Shown here one piece after another: positions 62 through 43,114 of a DNA stretch of 64,000 nucleotides (positions are counted from its first letter, which is position 1; every line of letters starts with the position of its first letter). The DNA lies in the NCBI RefSeq assembly GCF_000215935.2, contig NZ_AFNU02000004.1:62001-126000 (forward strand), in the 5' to 3' direction. The translations under genes and the position numbers were made by a program. The notes beneath the pieces are model-generated. The model had not been told where the DNA came from. It saw only the letters and a program-made list of their open reading frames with translations, and did not search any database. The DNA comes from Haloplasma contractile SSD-17B. GTDB taxonomy: Bacteria; Bacillota_I; Bacilli_A; Haloplasmatales; Haloplasmataceae.

Positions 62-394
62 TTATTTTTCAGTCACTACAACTGTAATATGACTTGTACG
101 TTTGTTTATTAATCCTGCACGACCTTGTGCGCGAGGACGGAATCTTTTTAATGTAGGTCCTTCATTTACATAGGCTTCTTTTATATATAATTGATTAGGA
201 TCTATGTTTAAATTATGTTCAGCATTTGCAATTGCAGATTTTAGAACTTTTTCAACTATAGGAGAGGCCTTCTTAGGAGTTAGCTTTAAAATAGCGAATG
301 CTTCTCCAACCTGCTTCCCTCGAATTAAATCAGCTACTAGTCTTACTTTACGAGGAGCAACACGAACTGTTTTTGCTATAGCTTTAGCTTCCAT
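62..394 (-). CDS. rplV: 50S ribosomal protein L22
   Basis: This 110-residue protein has the usual L22 length. It opens with [20 protein letters not shown], and the C-terminal half carries the conserved [12 protein letters not shown] segment that forms the beta-hairpin lining the peptide exit tunnel. It sits between rpsS and rpsC in the S10 operon with short spacers, so it is translated from the same long mRNA. Nothing unusual is visible. Confidence 0.97.
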
Positions 395-415
395 TCTTAA
401 ATCCTCCTCTCAACG

Positions 416-694
416 TTATCGTTTCGCTTTTTTGTCTTTTTTATCATGCCCATGGTAAGTACGTGTAGGTGCAAATTCACCTAATTTATGTCCTACCATA
501 TCTTCTGTTACATATACAGGAACATGTTTACGTCCGTCATACACAGCAATTGTGTGTCCCATAAATTCAGGGAAAATTGTTGAACGACGAGACCATGTTT
601 GAATTACTTTCTTTTTGTCAGCTTTGTTCATTTCTTCTACTTTTTTCATTAAGTGTTCATCACAAAAAGGTCCTTTTTTAAGAGAACGTCCCAT
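416..694 (-). CDS. rpsS: 30S ribosomal protein S19
   Basis: The 92-residue product begins [19 protein letters not shown] and contains the family pattern [20 protein letters not shown], followed by a lysine-rich tail. S19 sits in the head of the small subunit and contacts S13 and the A-site tRNA. A clear AAAGGAGG-type binding site precedes the ATG. It lies between rplB and rplV, the usual order. Confidence 0.97.
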
Positions 695-752
695 TAAAGT
701 TCCTCCTTTCGCCTCCTAGGGTATTTCCTAACGTTTGGTAACGTTCGTAGCG

Positions 753-1589
753 TTATTTTTTCTCATTACGACGACGAACAATATATTTATTAGACGCTTT
801 TTTCTTATTACGTGTTTTAAGACCAAGAGTTGGTTTACCCCATGGACTCACTGGTGACTTACGTCCGATTGGAGTACGTCCTTCTCCACCACCATGAGGG
901 TGATCGTTAGGGTTCATTACAGAACCACGTACAGTTGGTTTGATACCTTTCCAACGTTGACGTCCTGCTTTACCTACGTTTACTAGCTCATGATATTCAT
1001 TTCCTACTACACCAACAGTTGCTCTACATGTAGCAAGAATTTTACGACTTTCTCCAGATGCTAAACGCACAAGAACATAGCGTTCCTCACGTCCTTGAAT
1101 TTGAGCAGATGCTCCAGCTGAACGTACTAATTGTCCACCTTTTCCTGGTTTCATTTCAATATTATGAATCATAGTACCAACAGGGATGTTTTTAAGTGGC
1201 ATAGCATTTCCTACTTTAATATCCACTTGTTCTCCTGAGTAGATTTCCATTCCTACTTTTATCCCTTTAGGAGCTAGAATGTATCGTTTTTCTCCATCCG
1301 CATAGTTTATTAAAGCGATGTTAGCAGAACGGTTTGGATCGTATTCGATCGTAGCAACACGCCCAGGTACACCATCTTTATTACGTTTGAAGTCAATTAT
1401 ACGATATTTACGTTTATGTCCCCCACCGTGGTGACGAACCGTAATTTTACCTTGGTTATTTCGACCAGATTTTTTGTTTAATGGTGCCAGTAATGACTTT
1501 TCAGGTGTGTCAGTAGTAATTTCAGCATTTGTTAATGTAGTCATATTACGACGACCATTTGTGGTTGGTTTATACTTTTTAATTGGCAT
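753..1589 (-). CDS. rplB: 50S ribosomal protein L2
   Basis: The 278-residue product has full family length (B. subtilis L2 is about 277). It shows the N-terminal OB-fold region, the [12 protein letters not shown] motif near residues 50-65, and the C-terminal [14 protein letters not shown] segment with the conserved histidine near the peptidyl transferase centre. L2 is a primary 23S rRNA binding protein needed for subunit joining. An AGGAGG site stands directly before the ATG. Confidence 0.97.
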
Positions 1590-29350: not shown

Positions 29351-31909
29351 CTATAATCCACATTTTAATTGTGCATTACAGTTTGTACACGTATTACATC
29401 CACCAATTTCTTCAACTGTTCCTTCTAAACAGATTGGGCAAATGTCTCCAATATCAACACCGATATTCTTGTTTGCCTTTGTACGTGGTGGGTTAATATC
29501 AGCTTCATTCTTCTGTTTAGAATCGTGTTTTGACTCTTCAACTTGAAGACCTAGCTCTCTTGCATCAATCTGTTCCTCTTTTTTATCGTCCATCTTAAGC
29601 GTTAAGACTTGAGCATCTCGTGAACCATCTACATAAACAGTTCCACCTTTAGCTCCCCCCTTATATAGACGTTCATATACCGCTTCAACATCTGTTACTG
29701 TAAAGTTTCTAGGAGCATTAACGGTCTTTGAAATTGAAGAATCTATCCACCTTTGAATCACACATTGGACATCAGCATGTTCCTCTGGTTTAAGTTCCAT
29801 CGCACTTACAAAAGTATCTGGTAATGTTTCTTTTGTATATTCTGTATTTAAGGATAAGAATTCATCAACAATCTTAGCATTAACCTCTATAAACTTACCA
29901 AGTCGTCCACTTCTGTAATAAGTAAAGGCAAAGTAAGGTTCTAATCCCGTTGAAACTCCAACCATTGTACCAGTAGAACCTGTAGGAGCAATCGTTAACA
30001 AGTGTGAATTTCTTATACCATATGTAAGAATTCCATCCTTTATAAATCGTGGCATACGTTTAATATATCCTGACTGTACAAATTGATCACGACTTCCCTT
30101 GCTCTCTAAAAATGGGAAACTTCCTTTTTCTTTAGCTAATTCAATTGACGTTTCATATGCTGTTGTTGCTATAAATTCAAATAATTGATCAACTAGTTTA
30201 TTTCCTGATGCTGAGCCATAGCGTTCCTTACACCAAATTAATAAATCATGAAGACCCATAACTCCCATACCGATTCGTCTTTCACCTATCGCCTGATCCT
30301 TATTTTCTTCTAAAAAGTAAGGTGTTGAATCAATTACATTATCTTGCATTCTTACACCAGTCTGAATTGTGCTTCTTAGTTTTTCCCAATCTACTCTACC
30401 TGTATTTCTATTCACCATGTTTGCTAAATTTACTGCAGCTAGGTTACAAACTGAGTATGGAGATAATGGTTGTTCACCACATGGATTCGTTGCAACTACC
30501 TTCTGATTATATCCTTTAGCATTTGTCATATCATTCGCATTGTCAATAAAGAATATACCGGGTTCTGCTGAATAGGTTGCACATATATTGATAAGGTTCC
30601 ACAGTTCCTTTGCCTTAATACGCTTATAGGTTGTTACCTTATATCCCATCTCTTCCCATTCGCGAACGTCCCCTACTTGATGCCACTGACTGTCATAAAA
30701 AGCTTTCTCTTCTTCTGTGTAGTGAGTGATATCAGGGAACCTAAGGTCATACCACCCATCATTATCTACTGCTTCCATAAACTCTTTTGTAATCGTAACA
30801 GAAATATTTGCACCCGATAAAAACTCAGGATTATTTACTTCATATGTTCCGCCGTCTCTTAAGCACTTTCTAGCTTTCTCAACAATTGAGTCACTAAACG
30901 GTGACGGTGTATATTCATCAGCTACTTCAATAATATTTGAGTACATTCGCTCTTCTTCATCTGTAAGTGGTACAAATCTTAGTTTTTCCTTTGCAAGTTT
31001 TATAATGTCTTCATCATTTAATTGTTCGATTAGGAATTGTAGGATACGAGGATTCTGCATTTTTGAGATAATAAATTCAAGAATATCAGGATGCCAATCT
31101 GCTAACATGATCATTTGAGCACCTCGTCTTGAACCACCTTGCTCAACTAAATGCGTTAGCTGAGATAAATCGTTAAGCCAGCTAACTGCACCACTTGATT
31201 TTCCACCTACACCCTTAGCAAGTGCATTTTTAGGTCTAAGCGTCGAACCACTCGTACCTACTCCGCCACCTCTTGACATTATTTCCATGACTTGTTTACG
31301 GTGATCACTAATACCACCTCTAGAATCTTCAATAAAAGGCATTACAAAACAGTTAAAGTACGTTACTTCTGTATTGCTTCCTGATCCATATAATACTCGT
31401 CCCGCAGGAACAAAGTTTAGTTGTTTTAGTTCATCATAAAACTTTTTTGTCCATTCTTTACGCTTTTCTTCACTTTTCTCATTCTTTGCAAGATTGAAAG
31501 CCACACGTTTTGCTATCTGTTCATAGTAGATTTCAAGTGGTTTGTCAATTGAGTCAAGTTTTCTCTTAATCATACCCGTTTCAATCTCTTTAGGATCTTC
31601 AAGTGATCCTCTAAACTCTTCATCTACTAATATAGATGCTGTTTGTTCTTTGTAATCAAGCTCAATTACTTTACCAATACCTCTTGCCGGAAACTTAGGG
31701 TCATCTTTAACAATAACTAATACAATATCCCCTTCATCAAGTGATTTAAGATTTATATCTTTTTGTGCATATCGATCAAGCATTACCAGCCTAGATACAC
31801 CTTCGTGAGTTATTTTCATATTTTCTTCAATCTTATATAGGTGAGGGAAATAAAGTTCAATGCTTTTATTTAATTTCTGAATATAATCTTGATCATAATT
31901 TACCGCCAT
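29351..31909 (-). CDS. nrdJ: Adenosylcobalamin-dependent (class II) ribonucleoside-diphosphate reductase
   Basis: The 852-residue enzyme reduces ribonucleotides to deoxyribonucleotides using adenosylcobalamin. It has the class II catalytic barrel with NCFVMPF near residue 176, GGGVGTSGSTLRPKN, the active-site NPCGEQPLSPYSVCNLA (finger-loop cysteine), and a barrel-end APTGSTGTM motif. The C-terminal tail holds six cysteines (824, 827, 838, 841, 844, 850), including the redox pair that re-reduces the active site. An N-terminal ATP cone is not evident. The cobalamin riboswitch upstream supports the B12 assignment. The start follows GGGAGGAAT. Confidence 0.95.
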   Translation of the reverse strand: MAVNYDQDYIQKLNKSIELYFPHLYKIEENMKITHEGVSRLVMLDRYAQKDINLKSLDEGDIVLVIVKDDPKFPARGIGKVIELDYKEQTASILVDEEFRGSLEDPKEIETGMIKRKLDSIDKPLEIYYEQIAKRVAFNLAKNEKSEEKRKEWTKKFYDELKQLNFVPAGRVLYGSGSNTEVTYFNCFVMPFIEDSRGGISDHRKQVMEIMSRGGGVGTSGSTLRPKNALAKGVGGKSSGAVSWLNDLSQLTHLVEQGGSRRGAQMIMLADWHPDILEFIISKMQNPRILQFLIEQLNDEDIIKLAKEKLRFVPLTDEEERMYSNIIEVADEYTPSPFSDSIVEKARKCLRDGGTYEVNNPEFLSGANISVTITKEFMEAVDNDGWYDLRFPDITHYTEEEKAFYDSQWHQVGDVREWEEMGYKVTTYKRIKAKELWNLINICATYSAEPGIFFIDNANDMTNAKGYNQKVVATNPCGEQPLSPYSVCNLAAVNLANMVNRNTGRVDWEKLRSTIQTGVRMQDNVIDSTPYFLEENKDQAIGERRIGMGVMGLHDLLIWCKERYGSASGNKLVDQLFEFIATTAYETSIELAKEKGSFPFLESKGSRDQFVQSGYIKRMPRFIKDGILTYGIRNSHLLTIAPTGSTGTMVGVSTGLEPYFAFTYYRSGRLGKFIEVNAKIVDEFLSLNTEYTKETLPDTFVSAMELKPEEHADVQCVIQRWIDSSISKTVNAPRNFTVTDVEAVYERLYKGGAKGGTVYVDGSRDAQVLTLKMDDKKEEQIDARELGLQVEESKHDSKQKNEADINPPRTKANKNIGVDIGDICPICLEGTVEEIGGCNTCTNCNAQLKCGL

Positions 31910-32249: not shown

Positions 32250-32430
32250 ATCTTTCTCATTCCCAGGAGAAAAATTGAAGTGATTTGTTAGGTAGGTCTA
32301 CTGGCTCATGGATTAACCTACTGTGACACCTTCCCGCCTTGATAAGCAGTGGTTTATTGTCAGTTCGTCCTCATTTACAGTTGCTGGGACAGCTTAGGAA
32401 TTACACCTAATTCCCTATTAAACATACGTT
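32250..32430 (-). promoter_or_regulatory. Cobalamin (AdoCbl) riboswitch
   Basis: The minus strand carries the conserved core in order: AATAGGGAATTAGGTGTAA, the L5 region TCCCAGCAAC, ACCACTGC, GGGAAGGTG and GAGCCAGTAGACCTACC. A hairpin downstream (about 32252-32275) has CTGGGA in its loop (32261-32266), perfectly complementary to TCCCAG in L5 (32384-32389). This is the L5-L13 kissing pair of this riboswitch class. It lies between the promoter and nrdJ, which encodes a B12-dependent enzyme. Confidence 0.93.
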
Positions 32431-32465
32431 CCTAATTATCGTTTCAATTAATAACCTATACTCTT

Positions 32466-32494
32466 ATTATAGATTATCATGGTTTAGAATTCAA
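32466..32494 (-). promoter_or_regulatory. Promoter of the riboswitch-nrdJ transcript
   Basis: On the minus strand TTGAAT (32489-32494) and TATAAT (32466-32471) are 17 bases apart. The start should fall about 30 bases before the riboswitch core. Confidence 0.75.
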
Positions 32495-32677
32495 TAAGAT
32501 AATTTCAAAGTTTATCGTATTGAGGTGAATTTTGAAGTTCTTTGTTAAATAACATAGATAATTAAGGTTACTCACATTGTTAATAAAAAATACTCAATTT
32601 TAATACACTAAATAGTCAACTTATGCTCCCTTCTATCATATATCTTTTAATAGTAATAAAACTAAAGGGTGATAAAA

Positions 32678-34729
32678 ATGTATGATAATTTTTCGCATCA
32701 AGCACGACAAATAATTGTAAGAAGTCACAAGTATGCCCTAAATTACGATGAATATATAGTGGGGACCGAGTTTCTATTACAATCTCTATTTAATGAACTT
32801 AACAGCAGTTGTTATATCCTACTAAAAGAGCACGATATAACAGAACAAGAACTCATCAAGGCCTTTAATGATATTATTGTGTTTCGAAAAAATATTCCTG
32901 GCTTAATCATTTATACCAACAAGTTTAAGGAAATACTGGAGAAAGCAGGTGAAATTGCAACTCTAACGGATTCTGACTTAGTTTATGAAGAGCATATTTT
33001 TTATGCTTTGTTAAAAACAGACCACACAATTGCAAAAGTTGTATTGACTAAATTAAATATAGATATTAATCACCTATTAGAAGAAATAGAGGATGTTATG
33101 GATTGGGAATTTGAGGCACCAGATTCAGACATCGATCAGTTTAGTTTTGTTGAAGATATTACCGAATTAGCTCATAAAAGAAAACTCTTACCTTTAATTG
33201 GTAGGGAGGATACTTTAAATCGTATTAAATATATTCTAAACAAGAAAAATAAACGTAATGTCATTCTCATAGGTAATGCAGGCGTTGGTAAGACTGCTAT
33301 AGTTGAAGGTTTAGCTCAGCTTTTAATAAAAGAAAAAATAAACAAACGTATTTTATCTTTAAATATTAACTCCTTAATTGCAGGAACTAAATATAGAGGA
33401 GACTTTGAGGAGCGATTAGATAATTTTATAAATGAAGTGAGAAATCGAGACGATGTCATTATTTTCATTGATGAATTGCACAATATTGTTGGTGCAGGGG
33501 GAAATGATGGAGCACTTGATGCAGCTAACATTTTAAAACCTGTCCTTGCCCGTGGCGATATAAATTGCATTGGCGCTACGACTTCAGATGAGTATTATAA
33601 ACACCTAGCTGATGATCATGCGTTTACTAGACGTTTTCACCCTATTTTTATCGACGAGCCATCCGTCACGGAATCGAAAGAAATTCTCTATGGTGTTAAA
33701 GATCGTTTTGAAAGTTTTCACAATATTTATGTTTCTGATACTGTGATTGATTATATTGTTACGAAGGCTGATCGCAATATTGTCAATCGGTATTTTCCTG
33801 ATAAGGCAATTGATATATTAGATGAGGCTTGTTCTATTGCGAAGAGTCGAAATATGACTCACCTTTCGAATAAAATAATCGATGAAGTCATAAAAATTAT
33901 GAATAATCAATCGCTAGATTATGAGATTCCAAGTTCTTTGAACTTTTATCCATTCTTAGAAAAATATTATCTTCGTTATATTACAAATGTACGGCATGGT
34001 CATAAACCTATCGTATCGGTATTATGTGAATCGAATGGTGAGCATGAACTAGAAAATTTTGTAGATGATATACAAGATATCTTTAGTATTAAACATGAAG
34101 CGATTAAAACCATTAACCTAAACAACTTTGGGGATGATCATACTATTTCAAACCTTATTGGAGCACCACCGGGTTATGTGGGTTTCGAAAATACGAATAC
34201 TTTAACTAAATTTGTCCATAAGTACTCGCGTAGTTTAATTATATTTAAGAATATTGGTAGTGCAAGTTATAAGATTGAACAATTAGTTCGTGACATTATA
34301 AATACTGGATATGTGGAGGATTTTGGTAACAATAAAACTTTTTTCACAAACTGTATCATACTTGGAACTAGCGAACATAAAGACAAACGTATTGGCTTTA
34401 TTAATCAAAAAGGAAAACAGTCAAAACTTGATCATTACCATTTTAATGAAACCATAATCCTGGAGGATTATCGTTCTGTCAACCAAAATAAAGATTACTT
34501 TAAACATGTACTAGAAGATTACATTTCATCATTTAAAAATAATGGATTGAACATTCGCTTTAGTAGTTATAATCAATTTGTTGAAGCCCTATGTAAGAAG
34601 GTTATTACAATTAATGAGTTCGAAGATATATTATTTAATATATATAAAGACCGTCATAAGCAGTACCACACGCTTGAGTTTAAAGTGGATTCAAAACAGA
34701 ACAGAATTATTCTTAGTAAAAAAGACTAG
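32678..34729 (+). CDS. clpC: Reduced ClpC-like AAA+ unfoldase with a degenerate second ATPase domain
   Basis: The 683-residue protein has two ClpC N-domain repeats (about 1-60 and 75-140) and an intact first AAA+ domain: Walker A GNAGVGKT at 199-206, pore loop KYRG at 238-241, Walker B IIFIDE at 261-266 and arginine finger RRF at 318-320. The M-domain that docks MecA is missing. In the second AAA+ domain the Walker A site is replaced (CESNGEHE near 450), the Walker B site reads LIIFKNIG near 520, and the sensor-2 GAR motif is gone. The second pore loop GAPPGYVGF (495-503) and a ClpP-docking IGF (572-574) remain. The start is ATG with AAAGGGTG upstream. radA follows, as in B. subtilis, but ctsR, mcsA and mcsB are absent. 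Confidence 0.9.
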   Translation: MYDNFSHQARQIIVRSHKYALNYDEYIVGTEFLLQSLFNELNSSCYILLKEHDITEQELIKAFNDIIVFRKNIPGLIIYTNKFKEILEKAGEIATLTDSDLVYEEHIFYALLKTDHTIAKVVLTKLNIDINHLLEEIEDVMDWEFEAPDSDIDQFSFVEDITELAHKRKLLPLIGREDTLNRIKYILNKKNKRNVILIGNAGVGKTAIVEGLAQLLIKEKINKRILSLNINSLIAGTKYRGDFEERLDNFINEVRNRDDVIIFIDELHNIVGAGGNDGALDAANILKPVLARGDINCIGATTSDEYYKHLADDHAFTRRFHPIFIDEPSVTESKEILYGVKDRFESFHNIYVSDTVIDYIVTKADRNIVNRYFPDKAIDILDEACSIAKSRNMTHLSNKIIDEVIKIMNNQSLDYEIPSSLNFYPFLEKYYLRYITNVRHGHKPIVSVLCESNGEHELENFVDDIQDIFSIKHEAIKTINLNNFGDDHTISNLIGAPPGYVGFENTNTLTKFVHKYSRSLIIFKNIGSASYKIEQLVRDIINTGYVEDFGNNKTFFTNCIILGTSEHKDKRIGFINQKGKQSKLDHYHFNETIILEDYRSVNQNKDYFKHVLEDYISSFKNNGLNIRFSSYNQFVEALCKKVITINEFEDILFNIYKDRHKQYHTLEFKVDSKQNRIILSKKD

Positions 34730-34799: not shown

Positions 34800-36179
34800 A
34801 TGGCAAAAGCAAAAACAGTATTTTTCTGCAGTGAATGTGGAAATGAATCCTTAAAATGGGTAGGAAAGTGTCCAGGGTGTGGTAGTTGGAATACAATGGT
34901 AGAAGAACCTAAGAAACCAAAGAGTACAACAAACGGTCTCTTTCAAAAAGAACATTCGCACAAGCCAAATAAAATAACAACTATAAATACTGATGATGCT
35001 ATAAGATATCATACCTCATATCAGGAGTTTAACCGCGTGCTCGGTGGTGGCATTGTTCGTGGCTCTTTAGTCTTAATAGGAGGGGACCCTGGAATTGGGA
35101 AATCTACTCTACTATTACAGGTCGCGGCTAATGTTGGTACAAAAGATACTGTACTATATGTAACAGGAGAAGAATCAGAGCAGCAGATTAAAAACCGTGC
35201 AGAACGATTAGGGTTAACTCCTGATCAACTATACATATATTCAGAGAATAACACGCATGATATCATAAAGCACATTGAACTTTTGAATCCATCTCTTGTA
35301 ATTGTGGATTCTATTCAAACTGTATTTGTACCTGATATTACGTCAGCACCGGGTAGCGTGTCGCAGGTTCGTGAATGTACATCGAATTTTATGCGTTTAG
35401 CAAAGACAAAACAGATACCAATTTTTATAGTCGGGCACGTAACTAAGGACGGTGCAATTGCAGGTCCAAGAGTTTTAGAACATATGGTAGACACTGTTTT
35501 GTATTTTGAAGGAGAACGGTATAACACGTATCGAATACTTCGTGCGGTTAAGAACAGATTTGGGTCGACGAATGAAATTGGAATCTTTGATATGAAGGAA
35601 AAGGGTCTAGAAGAAGTTCTCAACCCTTCCGGCGTATTTTTAGAAGATCGTTCATATGGCTATGCTGGCGCTTCTGTCGTAGCAGCAATGGAAGGAACTA
35701 GGCCCGTTTTAGTAGAAATCCAATCTTTATTATCACCGACCTCTTTTGGGAATCCAAAACGTATGAGCCAAGGCATTGACTATAATAAATTATCATTATT
35801 AATAGCAGTTTTAGAGAAACGATTAGGTCTTCTTTTGCAAAATCAGGATGCCTATATTAAAGTTACTGGCGGTGTGAAATTAGTTGAGCCAGCTGTTGAT
35901 GTCGCAATTCTTTGTAGCATTGTATCTAGCTACAAAGATCAATCGTTGAGTCCTTATGATATATTCATTGGTGAGGTTGGTTTAACTGGTGAAATTAGAC
36001 GTGTTGCACGAATTGAAGAACGTATAAAAGAAGCGCATAAAATGGGATTTAAACGAGTTTTTATACCAGCTAAGAATAAAAAGTCATTATCGCTTAACCT
36101 TAAGGATTTTACCATTGTTGGTGTTAATGATATTGAAGAACTTGTAAAGAACGCGTTCGAAAAGCAAAATGATTTTTAG
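34800..36179 (+). CDS. radA: DNA repair protein RadA (Sms)
   Basis: The 459-residue protein has the N-terminal C4 zinc finger (Cys10, Cys13, Cys24, Cys27), a RecA-like ATPase core with Walker [11 protein letters not shown] at about 94-103, the RadA-specific KNRFG motif at 251-255, and a C-terminal Lon-protease-like domain. RadA helps branch migration during recombination. It follows the clpC-like gene by 70 bases. The disA gene usually next in line is absent. Binding site TTGGAGGT. Confidence 0.96.
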
Positions 36180-40212: not shown

Positions 40213-40247
40213 ACATCATAGATGAAACCGTTTTATAGGAGGTGCTT

Positions 40248-41744
40248 ATGTATAAAAAAACTTATCTACTTTTCCTTATATGTACAATTTTTCTATTAAG
40301 TTCATGTCGTACTGTTAATCAAGAAAATTTTAACTTAAGAGATGAGATTAATCTAAACAAGCAATATGACAAAGAGGCTTATTCGGCAATTGATTTAGAT
40401 GCTAATGAAGACTTTCATCGCCTGTTTAATGATTCAATTGAACATGAAATAATCATTGAAATTTCAGAAAGAGAATGGAAAGGATTATTACAGGATTTAA
40501 AGGAATATAGTAGTAAATTTCAACATGAGTTAAAAAACAGCAAATATAGAATAGCAAAGTTAATCTATAAAGATGAATACGGTACAATTGAAGTTGATGA
40601 TATAGGTTTTAGAACCAGAGGGAATACTTCTAGAGTTTATCCTCAGAATGATGACGGTTCATTCAATATGTCACATTTTAAAGTAAAATTTGATGAAACC
40701 TTTCACTATGGTAAAGAAACAAAACAATATAAAGCACTTGATGAAAGGAAAGTCTTTGATGTTGAAGAACTAAATTTTAAATGGAATCGAAATTATGACT
40801 CAACTTATATAAGTGAACTATATTCATACGAGTTGTTCCACAAAGTAGGAATCATGTCCCCTGAATCCTCATTAACTAAATTCAGCATTAAAATAGGAGA
40901 TGATCTTACTTATTTTGGTATTTATACTGTTTTTGAACCCATTGATAAAGACTTTTTAACCAAGCGATTGGGGAAGGATCATAACGACGGTAACTTATAT
41001 AAATGTCTATGGCAACAGTATGGTCAACCGCTTCTGACCCCTGATTATCCACAGGCTGCAATCGGAATCAAAGATACATCCATTAATTATAGACCTACTT
41101 ATGATTTAAAAACAAATAAAGATGATGCGAATCATAGGGCACTAAGAGCATTTATTAGACAAATTAATGCATTGGATGATGCTCAATTTAAAATTTATAT
41201 TGATGATCACTTTGAAGTTGATTCCTTTTTACGGTTTCTAGCTCTAGGTGTATTAATAGGAAATCCAGACGATTATAGAGGTCTAGGAAACAATTATTAC
41301 TTATATCAGAAAAGTAATTCTAAATTTGAAATGATTCCTTACGATTATGATCATAGTCTAGGGCAAGGGTGGGGAGGAGAACCAGCATTTTCAAATTATA
41401 CGATTGATACGGATATATACGACTTTGGAGAATATAATTATAGTCATCCATTGTCAGACCGTATACTGAATATTACTGAATACCAGGAGAAATATGAAGA
41501 GTATTTAAAAATGTTCACAGAATACAGGAATGATATTTTTACATATGATAATTTTTTTGATAAGTACTTACAGCAATATAATTTATACAGTGATGACCTG
41601 CCTAATGACTTAAATAACGCTCCCAAATTTGATGTCAGGAATTCTAACTGGTACTTTAAGGAAAAAATAATGAACATTAAAGGACAGCTGGATTATTATG
41701 GTTCACATAATGAAAAGCGAGGCGATTTACTTGGTCGAGACTAG
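40248..41744 (+). CDS. CotH-like protein kinase family lipoprotein
   Basis: The 498-residue protein opens with a lipoprotein signal (hydrophobic stretch, then LLSSC with Cys20). The rest matches the CotH family: RGNTSRVYP near residue 125, FGIYTVFEPIDKDFL, GNPDDYRGLGNNYYLY near residue 343 and the metal-binding YDYDHSLG near residue 368. CotH kinases are atypical kinases, and B. subtilis CotH phosphorylates spore coat proteins. Here the neighbours are a VTC-type polymerase domain protein and DUF4956, a module common outside sporulation. Start ATG behind AGGAGG. Confidence 0.88.
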   Translation: MYKKTYLLFLICTIFLLSSCRTVNQENFNLRDEINLNKQYDKEAYSAIDLDANEDFHRLFNDSIEHEIIIEISEREWKGLLQDLKEYSSKFQHELKNSKYRIAKLIYKDEYGTIEVDDIGFRTRGNTSRVYPQNDDGSFNMSHFKVKFDETFHYGKETKQYKALDERKVFDVEELNFKWNRNYDSTYISELYSYELFHKVGIMSPESSLTKFSIKIGDDLTYFGIYTVFEPIDKDFLTKRLGKDHNDGNLYKCLWQQYGQPLLTPDYPQAAIGIKDTSINYRPTYDLKTNKDDANHRALRAFIRQINALDDAQFKIYIDDHFEVDSFLRFLALGVLIGNPDDYRGLGNNYYLYQKSNSKFEMIPYDYDHSLGQGWGGEPAFSNYTIDTDIYDFGEYNYSHPLSDRILNITEYQEKYEEYLKMFTEYRNDIFTYDNFFDKYLQQYNLYSDDLPNDLNNAPKFDVRNSNWYFKEKIMNIKGQLDYYGSHNEKRGDLLGRD

Positions 41745-42450
41745 GAAAGGACAACTAGCCTACCGGCATGAAGAAAAATACTTAATCTCTTTAAAGGATT
41801 ATACTATTCTAAAAAATAGAATTAAGTCACTCTTAAAGATAGATAAAAATACAGGTCTAGTCGGTCATTATCATATTAGAAGTATTTACTTTGATGATCG
41901 GCATCATAATTGTGTTTATGATAATCTCGCGGGTATTCATACACGTTTCAAGTATCGAATACGCTATTACAGTCATGATCCATCATTTATCAAACTTGAA
42001 AAGAAAGCAAAAGATAATCACTATAATCGAAAAACATCATTTAGACTGAACAAAAAACAATTAGATTGTTTACTCAAAAATGATTACCTTTTTTGTAATA
42101 AACTAGATGATCCGCTTGCGAATGAGTTTTTCCACCAGGTAAAAGCTAGAGGTTTTTCACCAAGTCTAGTTATTGATTATGATCGTGAAGCCTATACTTT
42201 AAATTTTAATGATATTCGTATTACATTTGATACAAATATTAGCTATAGGGAAGTAAATGATTCTTTGAATACAATAGATTTCGGTTATGTCTCTTATCTT
42301 GATATAAAACATATTATTCTTGAAATTAAATATTTTGATTTTTTACCCAATTATATTAGAAAAGTGTTTAAGCAATCAACAATGACACGGACATCTCTTT
42401 CTAAGTATGTTATGTGTTATCTTTCAAAAAATGGAGAGGAACTATTATGA
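41731..42450 (+). CDS. VTC-domain (polyphosphate polymerase-like) protein
   Basis: The protein matches the VTC domain of polyphosphate polymerases: YRHEEKYLI near the N terminus, HIRSIYFDD, HTRFKYRIRYY, KLEKKAK, LVIDYDREAY and a final ILEIKYFDFLP. These form the basic and acidic residues lining the tunnel barrel. The start is uncertain. TTG 41731 has GAGG eight bases upstream, while in-frame ATGs at 41698 and 41710 lack a site. It overlaps the 3' end of cotH, and its TGA stop overlaps the ATG of the next gene, so the three are translationally linked. Product and direction of catalysis are inferred from family. Confidence 0.85.
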   Translation: MVETRKGQLAYRHEEKYLISLKDYTILKNRIKSLLKIDKNTGLVGHYHIRSIYFDDRHHNCVYDNLAGIHTRFKYRIRYYSHDPSFIKLEKKAKDNHYNRKTSFRLNKKQLDCLLKNDYLFCNKLDDPLANEFFHQVKARGFSPSLVIDYDREAYTLNFNDIRITFDTNISYREVNDSLNTIDFGYVSYLDIKHIILEIKYFDFLPNYIRKVFKQSTMTRTSLSKYVMCYLSKNGEELL

Positions 42451-43114
42451 TGAGTAAACTACAGTTTTTACAGTCACAACAACCTGTTACTAATTTAAAT
42501 GAATTATTTAATAAGGTACAATTAAATTCAATCTCAACTTATGAGTTAATTGCAGGTATGTCTATATCGTTTATATTAGGATTATTAATCTTTATTATTT
42601 ACCGAATTACGTTTAAGGGGACCGTGTATAGTTACACCTTTAACCTTTCATTACTGTTATAACAGCCTTAATTATTATGACCATAAGTTCAAATCTAGTA
42701 TTGTCTCTTGGTATGGTAGGGGCACTCAGTATAGTTCGTTTTAGAACAGCTATAAAGGATCCTATTGATATTGTATATATTTTTTGGAGTATTTCAGTAG
42801 GTCTCGCAATTGGCTCAAATCAATATTTGATAGGTTTTGTAGGGAGTAGTTTCTTAGCACTTATACTTATACTCTCTAATCTTATTCGCATTAAATCAAA
42901 GTCAGTAATTCTAATTATAAATTATGACTATACTTACGAAGATGATGTTAACAGCTGTATAAAACGTATAAAACACGCTATAAAGTCTAAACATACAACT
43001 AATAATCAAGTCGAGTTGACACTTGAGATTAAGCAAATTAAAGATGACATCTTACGCGCGTTAAATGATGCTTCATTTGTACACAATACATCTCTGTTGC
43101 AATATGATGAATAA
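42447..43114 (+). pseudogene. DUF4956 membrane protein split by a frameshift
   Basis: Frame one (42447-42662) gives an N-terminal part with one membrane helix ending YRITFKGTVYSYTFNLSLLL and a TAA. The -1 frame is open from 42644 and continues the family sequence without loss: ITVITALIIM, then LGMVGALSIVRFRTAIKDP, which is the DUF4956 signature, to the stop at 43114. The two frames overlap over 42644-42659. No separate start with a binding site exists for the second half, and no classical slippery heptamer is seen. This is either a genuine frameshift, a sequencing error or recoding. The family usually accompanies CotH and VTC genes. Confidence 0.8.

Follow-up and report, generated by a model that had tools for sequence, protein, structure and literature searches.

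A ClpC variant of Haloplasma contractile and related families with one intact ATPase domain and a second domain that keeps its pore loop without its nucleotide site

The window analysed here, a stretch of 64,000 nucleotides from contig NZ_AFNU02000004.1 of Haloplasma contractile SSD-17B, carries a gene that, judged by its N domain, first ATPase domain (D1), pore loops, ClpP-docking tripeptide and locus, is a ClpC by descent. Because it lacks both a catalytic second domain (D2) and the M-domain, we regard it as a ClpC variant rather than a typical member of the family. The protein is probably a functional ClpCP unfoldase that lacks the M-domain and is powered by D1 alone, in which D2 serves as a non-hydrolysing ring for substrate grip and ClpP docking. 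With slightly less assurance, we also consider it likely that the ClpCP of the whole clade runs on the D1 ring alone, its D2 having been converted once, in the ancestor of at least five families, to a nucleotide-free ring maintained under selection.

Results

The gene and its N-terminal half

The 683-codon frame, which an earlier note made from the sequence had described as open, runs without interruption from the ATG at 32678 to 34729 on the forward strand, with an in-frame GTG alternative start three codons upstream at 32669. Pfam matches in this frame comprised Clp_N, AAA, AAA_lid_9 and a partial AAA_2, and the closest PDB entries by sequence were the ClpC proteins of S. aureus and B. subtilis. 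Among the NCBIfam models, ClpB, ClpA and similar families matched, all far under their cut-offs, which places the protein outside every curated family; it is thus not a ClpB (TIGR03346, 372 bits against a cut-off of 1232) or a ClpA (TIGR02639, 339 bits against 993). The features of the gene and of its N-terminal half are as follows.

32678..34729, + strand: ClpC-like gene with a dead D2, 683 amino acids plus stop, ATG at 32678 (Pfam and PDB matches)
32678..33097, + strand: Clp N domain, two Clp_N repeats, about residues 1-140 (PF02861; ClpC N-domain PDB entries; helical repeat in the AF2 model)
33155..33862, + strand: intact D1 AAA+ module, about residues 160-395 (Pfam AAA and AAA_lid_9; motif table)
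33272..33295, + strand: D1 Walker A, GNAGVGKT (motif table)
33389..33400, + strand: D1 pore-1 loop, KYRG (motif table)
33458..33475, + strand: D1 Walker B, IIFIDE (motif table)
33629..33637, + strand: D1 arginine finger region, RRF (motif table)

The two-repeat N domain typical of ClpC scored above the PF02861 cut-off, and D1 carried everything expected of a catalytic ClpC domain (Walker A, the KYRG pore loop, Walker B and the RRF finger), which bears out the initial view of an intact first AAA+ domain. The segment from D1 to the position of the D2 P-loop spans 72 amino acids, against 151 in the reference ClpC of Clostridium (L109), indicating that the M-domain characteristic of ClpC has been lost, as had also been proposed.

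An erased nucleotide site in the second domain

D2 motif positions were read from an alignment with 30 ordinary relatives of the ClpC/ClpE type, yielding the following features.

33863..34726, + strand: D2 pseudo-ATPase module and C-terminal lid-like region, residues 396-683 (AF2 of D2 alone; PDB fold matches)
34031..34054, + strand: erased D2 Walker A position, SNGEHELE instead of GPTGVGKT (alignment and motif table)
34157..34186, + strand: retained D2 pore-1 loop, IGAPPGYVGF, residues 494-503 (G495, G499, Y500 and G502 invariant in 46/46)
34232..34252, + strand: erased D2 Walker B, SLIIFKN, with KN for DE (K in 34/45 and N in 40/45 members)
34307..34351, + strand: retained beta-hairpin before sensor-1, residues 544-558 (D548 invariant; AF2 strands E545-547 and E553-555)
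34391..34399, + strand: ClpP-docking tripeptide kept as IGF, residues 572-574, in a loop modelled as disordered (G573 in 44/44 and F574 in 38/44; loop pLDDT <50)

The Walker B motif of the relatives, S-V-I-L-(F/L)-D-E, is replaced by SLIIFKN, their sensor-1 MTSN by GTSE, and their RPEFxNRIDE and GARPLRR motifs are gone, so that D2 lacks the Walker A/B motifs, sensors and finger of a catalytic ClpC domain. The earlier note had reported the loss of Walker A, Walker B and sensor-2; all three are indeed replaced, sensor-1 and the arginine finger have disappeared as well, and no alignment placed a functional Walker A/B pair in this domain. GAPPGYVGF and IGF, which are invariant or nearly so among the 30 relatives and which the note had singled out as kept, are both in place, providing the D2 GYVG pore loop and the [ILV]GF docking tripeptide expected of a ClpC (the latter drifted in family f5).

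An AlphaFold2 (AF2) model of the full protein (pLDDT 82) showed the N domain, D1, and a D2 with AAA+ strand-helix order, with the IGF loop disordered (pLDDT <50), and a Foldseek search with this model returned ClpC, ClpB and ClpA structures. When D2 was modelled alone (pLDDT 82), its best PDB folds were ClpA, ClpC and ClpB, with E of about 1e-15 and TM of about 0.5-0.57. The input alignment held ordinary ClpC rows that bias D2 towards the ClpC fold, and the model thus shows that D2 is compatible with a ClpA/ClpC-like fold rather than constituting independent proof of it.

Distribution and origin of the clade

The 60 relatives that were searched included seven Haloplasmataceae genomes besides H. 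contractile, among them Inordinaticella fortuita and several MAGs. Six of these seven, I. fortuita 4B included, encode the Haloplasma-type protein, with 51-57% identity; the remaining one (G007), a fragmented MAG, yielded only a contig-edge fragment of it, and the total for the family is 7/8 when H. contractile is counted. A class-wide survey of 395 genomes, whose matches were then fetched and aligned, raised the number of dead-D2 ClpC sequences to 46, distributed over five families (f1, the Haloplasmataceae, f3, f5, f16 and f21). All D1 motifs are kept wherever the sequences cover them, while Walker A2, Walker B2, sensor-1, finger-2 and sensor-2 are lost throughout, and the KN substitution for the Walker B2 DE is strikingly uniform. 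These putative single-motor enzymes are short, at about 550-690 aa. The recurrence of the pattern in 46 sequences from five families means that it reflects neither chance nor one broken genome, and sequencing error or a dying gene was rejected in view of several independent assemblies from five families, open frames and low dN/dS.

A tree was built on the N domain plus D1, leaving D2 without influence on the grouping; in it the 45 dead-D2 sequences long enough to enter (of 46) formed one clade with support of 99/100, which points to a single ancestral loss of D2 function, inherited vertically within this clade. The gene neighbourhood, with its flanking genes listed below, was in agreement with this tree.

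29351..31909, - strand: nrdJ-like gene for a class II ribonucleotide reductase, transcribed divergently from clpC (conserved neighbour that marks the clade)
34800..36179, + strand: radA, downstream neighbour in Haloplasmataceae (also 3' of clpC in Clostridium, L109)

The dead-D2 clpC is divergent from nrdJ or hflX in 39/46 members, an arrangement that no other fetched ClpC gene of the class shows; being a character independent of the tree, it agrees with a single origin. The Haloplasmataceae share the gene order nrdJ / clpC - radA - GNAT, and since clpC is followed by radA in Clostridium (L109) as well, the Haloplasma gene sits at the orthologous clpC-radA locus, from which ctsR-mcsA-mcsB are absent. 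radA was considered as a clade-wide neighbour and discarded, as flanks of up to 1.5 kb contained none outside the Haloplasmataceae; the upstream hflX/nrdJ is the wider clade marker.

Several further elements were noted around these loci. A cobalamin riboswitch (RF00174, 101.6 bits, 32274-32474, - strand) lies upstream of the B12-type reductase gene (29351-31909), within the spacer that separates this nrdJ-like gene from the clpC variant. Three adjacent genes at 40242-43114 (+ strand) resemble, by sequence reading, a CotH-type spore-coat kinase, a VTC-domain polyphosphate polymerase-like protein and a DUF4956-like membrane protein. In family f5, a transposase-like frame (OrfB/TnpB type, by sequence reading) occupies positions 92-1399 (- strand) of L131 (G011), directly upstream of the dead-D2 clpC, and may explain the missing hflX neighbour there.

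The sampled tree contains at least five losses of catalytic D2 residues, one of which (L188) amounts to no more than a Walker B E-to-D change. Additional class members with an eroded D2 were L182, L184, L188 and L189 (f18), L187 (f10), L183 and L191 (f19), and L167 and L173 (f13); the two f13 proteins lack the pore loop and keep LGF or MGF, and f18 lacks the pore loop and keeps the P-loop. D2 erosion is thus recurrent in the class and proceeds by different routes.

Conservation and selection

The NG86 method was applied to sequence pairs, with pairs of saturated dS counted as uninformative. Close pairs from several families (dS 0.1-0.8) gave dN/dS values of 0.01-0.09 for D1 and of 0.03, 0.08 and 0.08 for D2, and more distant pairs reached up to about 0.3 for D2, with 0.37 for L162-L163; constraint on D2 is weaker than on D1 but far from neutral. 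Within D2, conservation is highest in the pore loop, with an invariant GYxG and a mean column entropy of 0.66 bits over its 9-mer against 2.14 for D2 overall. Four of the six invariant columns of D2 and the tail fall inside this 9-residue loop, for which the one-window probability is 1e-5 (~0.003 across all windows). The conserved glycines and tyrosine of the loop could be partly structural.

The tripeptide glycine G573 is invariant (44/44) within a variable, disordered loop whose adjacent columns are near saturation. Outside f5, 28 of 31 readable members have [IVLM]GF and the remaining three IGY. Within f5 the tripeptide has drifted in 9/13 members, to TGF, AGF, KGF, VGL or LGI, suggesting that ClpP docking may be weakening or doubtful in this family. 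The frames of L016 (G009), L162 and L163 end 0-2 residues past the tripeptide, with the whole D2 lid lost, and those of L017, L138, L141 and L164 end 4-18 residues past it; five of these seven short-tailed members keep [IV]GF, and L017 and L141, both of f5, do not.

The repeated loss of D2 ATPase motifs in the class, the members that end just past the tripeptide and the faster evolution of D2 relative to D1 would all fit a domain in decay, in which the kept motifs reflect inertia before domain loss. We consider this explanation very unlikely, in view of one ancestral loss carried through five families with open frames and low dN/dS, of pore-loop columns that stay invariant amid saturated D2 neighbours, and of the other eroded lineages (L167 and L173 of f13; f18) that did lose the pore loop, which indicates that retention was not inevitable. 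In close relatives the frame is unbroken and the gene is under strong purifying selection, and selective retention, which the earlier note had preferred to a dying gene, is the dominant signal across the 46 sequences.

Partner proteins

The genome search that had been suggested for ClpP, a second ClpC, MecA and McsB recovered the first of these and none of the other three. H. contractile encodes a single ClpP, whose Ser and His regions are intact as expected, a ClpX adjoining tig, and a separate ClpB. A PF07724 search found no second ClpC in this genome, and its other AAA_2-family proteins were ClpB, ClpX, Lon and a RarA-like clamp-loader-type ATPase only (Lon and RarA-like being names given from length and sequence), with no ClpE or ClpA among them. 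MecA was absent from the eight Haloplasmataceae genomes, the control in B. subtilis being found. CtsR was not found in 10 genomes nor McsB in 13, H. contractile included in both cases and the positive controls found; the queries were the Clostridium (L109) proteins, as the Pfam models missed controls (CtsR in B. subtilis, McsB everywhere). Beside the gene itself, ctsR, mcsA and mcsB are absent, as had already been pointed out from the sequence. Three extra divergent ClpP-family proteins of ~240-260 aa were observed on contigs 29, 32 and 50 of the 'Haloplasma' MAG B5_bin.1 (G001); these are perhaps prophage head-maturation proteases.

This inventory bears on two further explanations. Pex1/Pex6, where one of the heteromeric AAA+ rings is inactive, offers a precedent for a mixed hexamer in which another Clp ATPase would supply subunits with a live D2; with no second ClpC, ClpE or ClpA found and only ClpB, ClpX, Lon and the RarA-like protein present, such a hexamer seems extremely improbable. 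ClpP, for its part, was found in 45/46 carriers, the exception being an 82%-complete MAG, against only half of the sampled relatives. This distribution speaks against a ClpP-independent chaperone or disaggregase powered by D1, its D2 being no more than a structural remnant, as do the separate ClpB of H. contractile and the invariant glycine of an IGF motif that survives in four families. The tripeptide drift in f5 and the N domain and D1 being by far the best-conserved part would accord with such a chaperone, which we nevertheless judge improbable.

Discussion

The preferred reading, a ClpCP unfoldase driven by D1 alone, would operate as follows. The protein, as the sole ClpC of its genome, would assemble as a hexamer whose only ATP-driven motor is the D1 ring, presumably sufficient for unfolding, while the D2 ring, predicted neither to bind nor to hydrolyse ATP, would stay as a passive second ring. 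The tyrosine loops (GYVG) of D2 would lie along the channel and keep hold of the substrate from one D1 stroke to the next, and the IGF loops would dock the hexamer on ClpP, at least outside f5. Since the M-domain is gone and MecA was not found, there would be no repressed resting state and no MecA control; a mutation in the M-domain of S. aureus ClpC renders that protein hexameric and MecA-independent (PMC12521514). The result would be a constitutively assembled, low-force ClpCP, probably acting on unstructured or weakly folded substrates, alongside a ClpXP that would handle the stable ones.

A motor consisting of D1 only is plausible because of published work on ClpE and ClpA. A Walker-B2 mutant of ClpE retained partial ClpP-dependent degradation of FITC-casein and CtsR, though not of aggregated MDH (PMC13125188). 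It shares with the Haloplasma protein, as far as can be read from the latter's sequence, D1-only ATP hydrolysis together with a kept D2 pore loop and ClpP docking; however, the point mutant should still bind nucleotide in D2, whereas the natural protein lacks the entire D2 nucleotide site and the M-domain. E. coli ClpA is likewise an M-domain-free two-ring unfoldase, one that docks ClpP by an IGL-type loop and uses D1 as an auxiliary back-up motor, but its principal ATPase motor is D2 (PMC9663308), the domain that is catalytically dead in the Haloplasma protein.

The same studies can be read in the opposite direction. ClpE mutants without D2 hydrolysis lose most of their activity (PMC13125188), which, by analogy, would count against an unfoldase powered by D1 only. 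With D2 as the principal motor of ClpA (PMC9663308) and ClpE Walker-B2 mutants so strongly impaired (PMC13125188), threading could be too weak, and the protein might instead be a ClpP-docking regulator whose N domain and D1 bind or remodel substrate and whose IGF ring opens the ClpP gate, or competes with ClpX, without processive unfolding. The retention of IGF in some members where the lid is lost would suit this role. A pure gate-opener, however, needs neither pore loops nor D1 catalysis, and the pore loops of D1 and D2 and all D1 catalytic motifs are kept; we consider such a regulator unlikely.

Pex1/Pex6 and NSF are AAA+ motors with two rings, one of them a non-catalytic scaffold, but these are eukaryotic type II AAA proteins, not Clp/Hsp100, and work without ClpP. 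Pex1/6 is also covered in PMC4490564. With the ClpC of B. subtilis and S. aureus and ClpC1 of M. tuberculosis, the Haloplasma protein shares the N-D1-D2 order, the D1 motifs, the KYRG and GYVG loops, an IGF-type tripeptide and radA adjacency; it differs from them in having no M-domain and no D2 Walker A/B, sensors or finger, and in a genome in which CtsR, McsB and MecA were not found. ClpI of Actinomycetota is, similarly, a divergent ClpC-like unfoldase class defined by bioinformatics (PMC10149685). That study described a subset of ClpC-like sequences with short M-domains and altered LGF regions, and its aligned actinobacterial ClpC orthologs have strongly conserved Walker motifs (PMC10149685), whereas in the Haloplasma clade the D2 Walker motifs are erased and the tripeptide is kept. 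No matching description of an inactive or degenerate D2 in ClpC was found in the open-access literature, subscription papers lying outside the search.

If the preferred reading is true, these bacteria possess a natural single-motor, double-ring Clp protease, in which a machine believed to depend on two motors works with only the weaker of them. The clade would then represent a long natural experiment, in which D2 catalysis is gone while the pore tyrosine and, in most members, the ClpP contacts are kept. The independent D2 losses in the same class supply contrasts in which the pore loop, and not only the nucleotide site, disappeared, and the small size of the single-motor enzymes makes them handy for structural work. 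The clade lends itself readily to testing what a non-hydrolysing ring adds to grip, processivity and docking, and whether D1 by itself can power a ClpP protease in cells.
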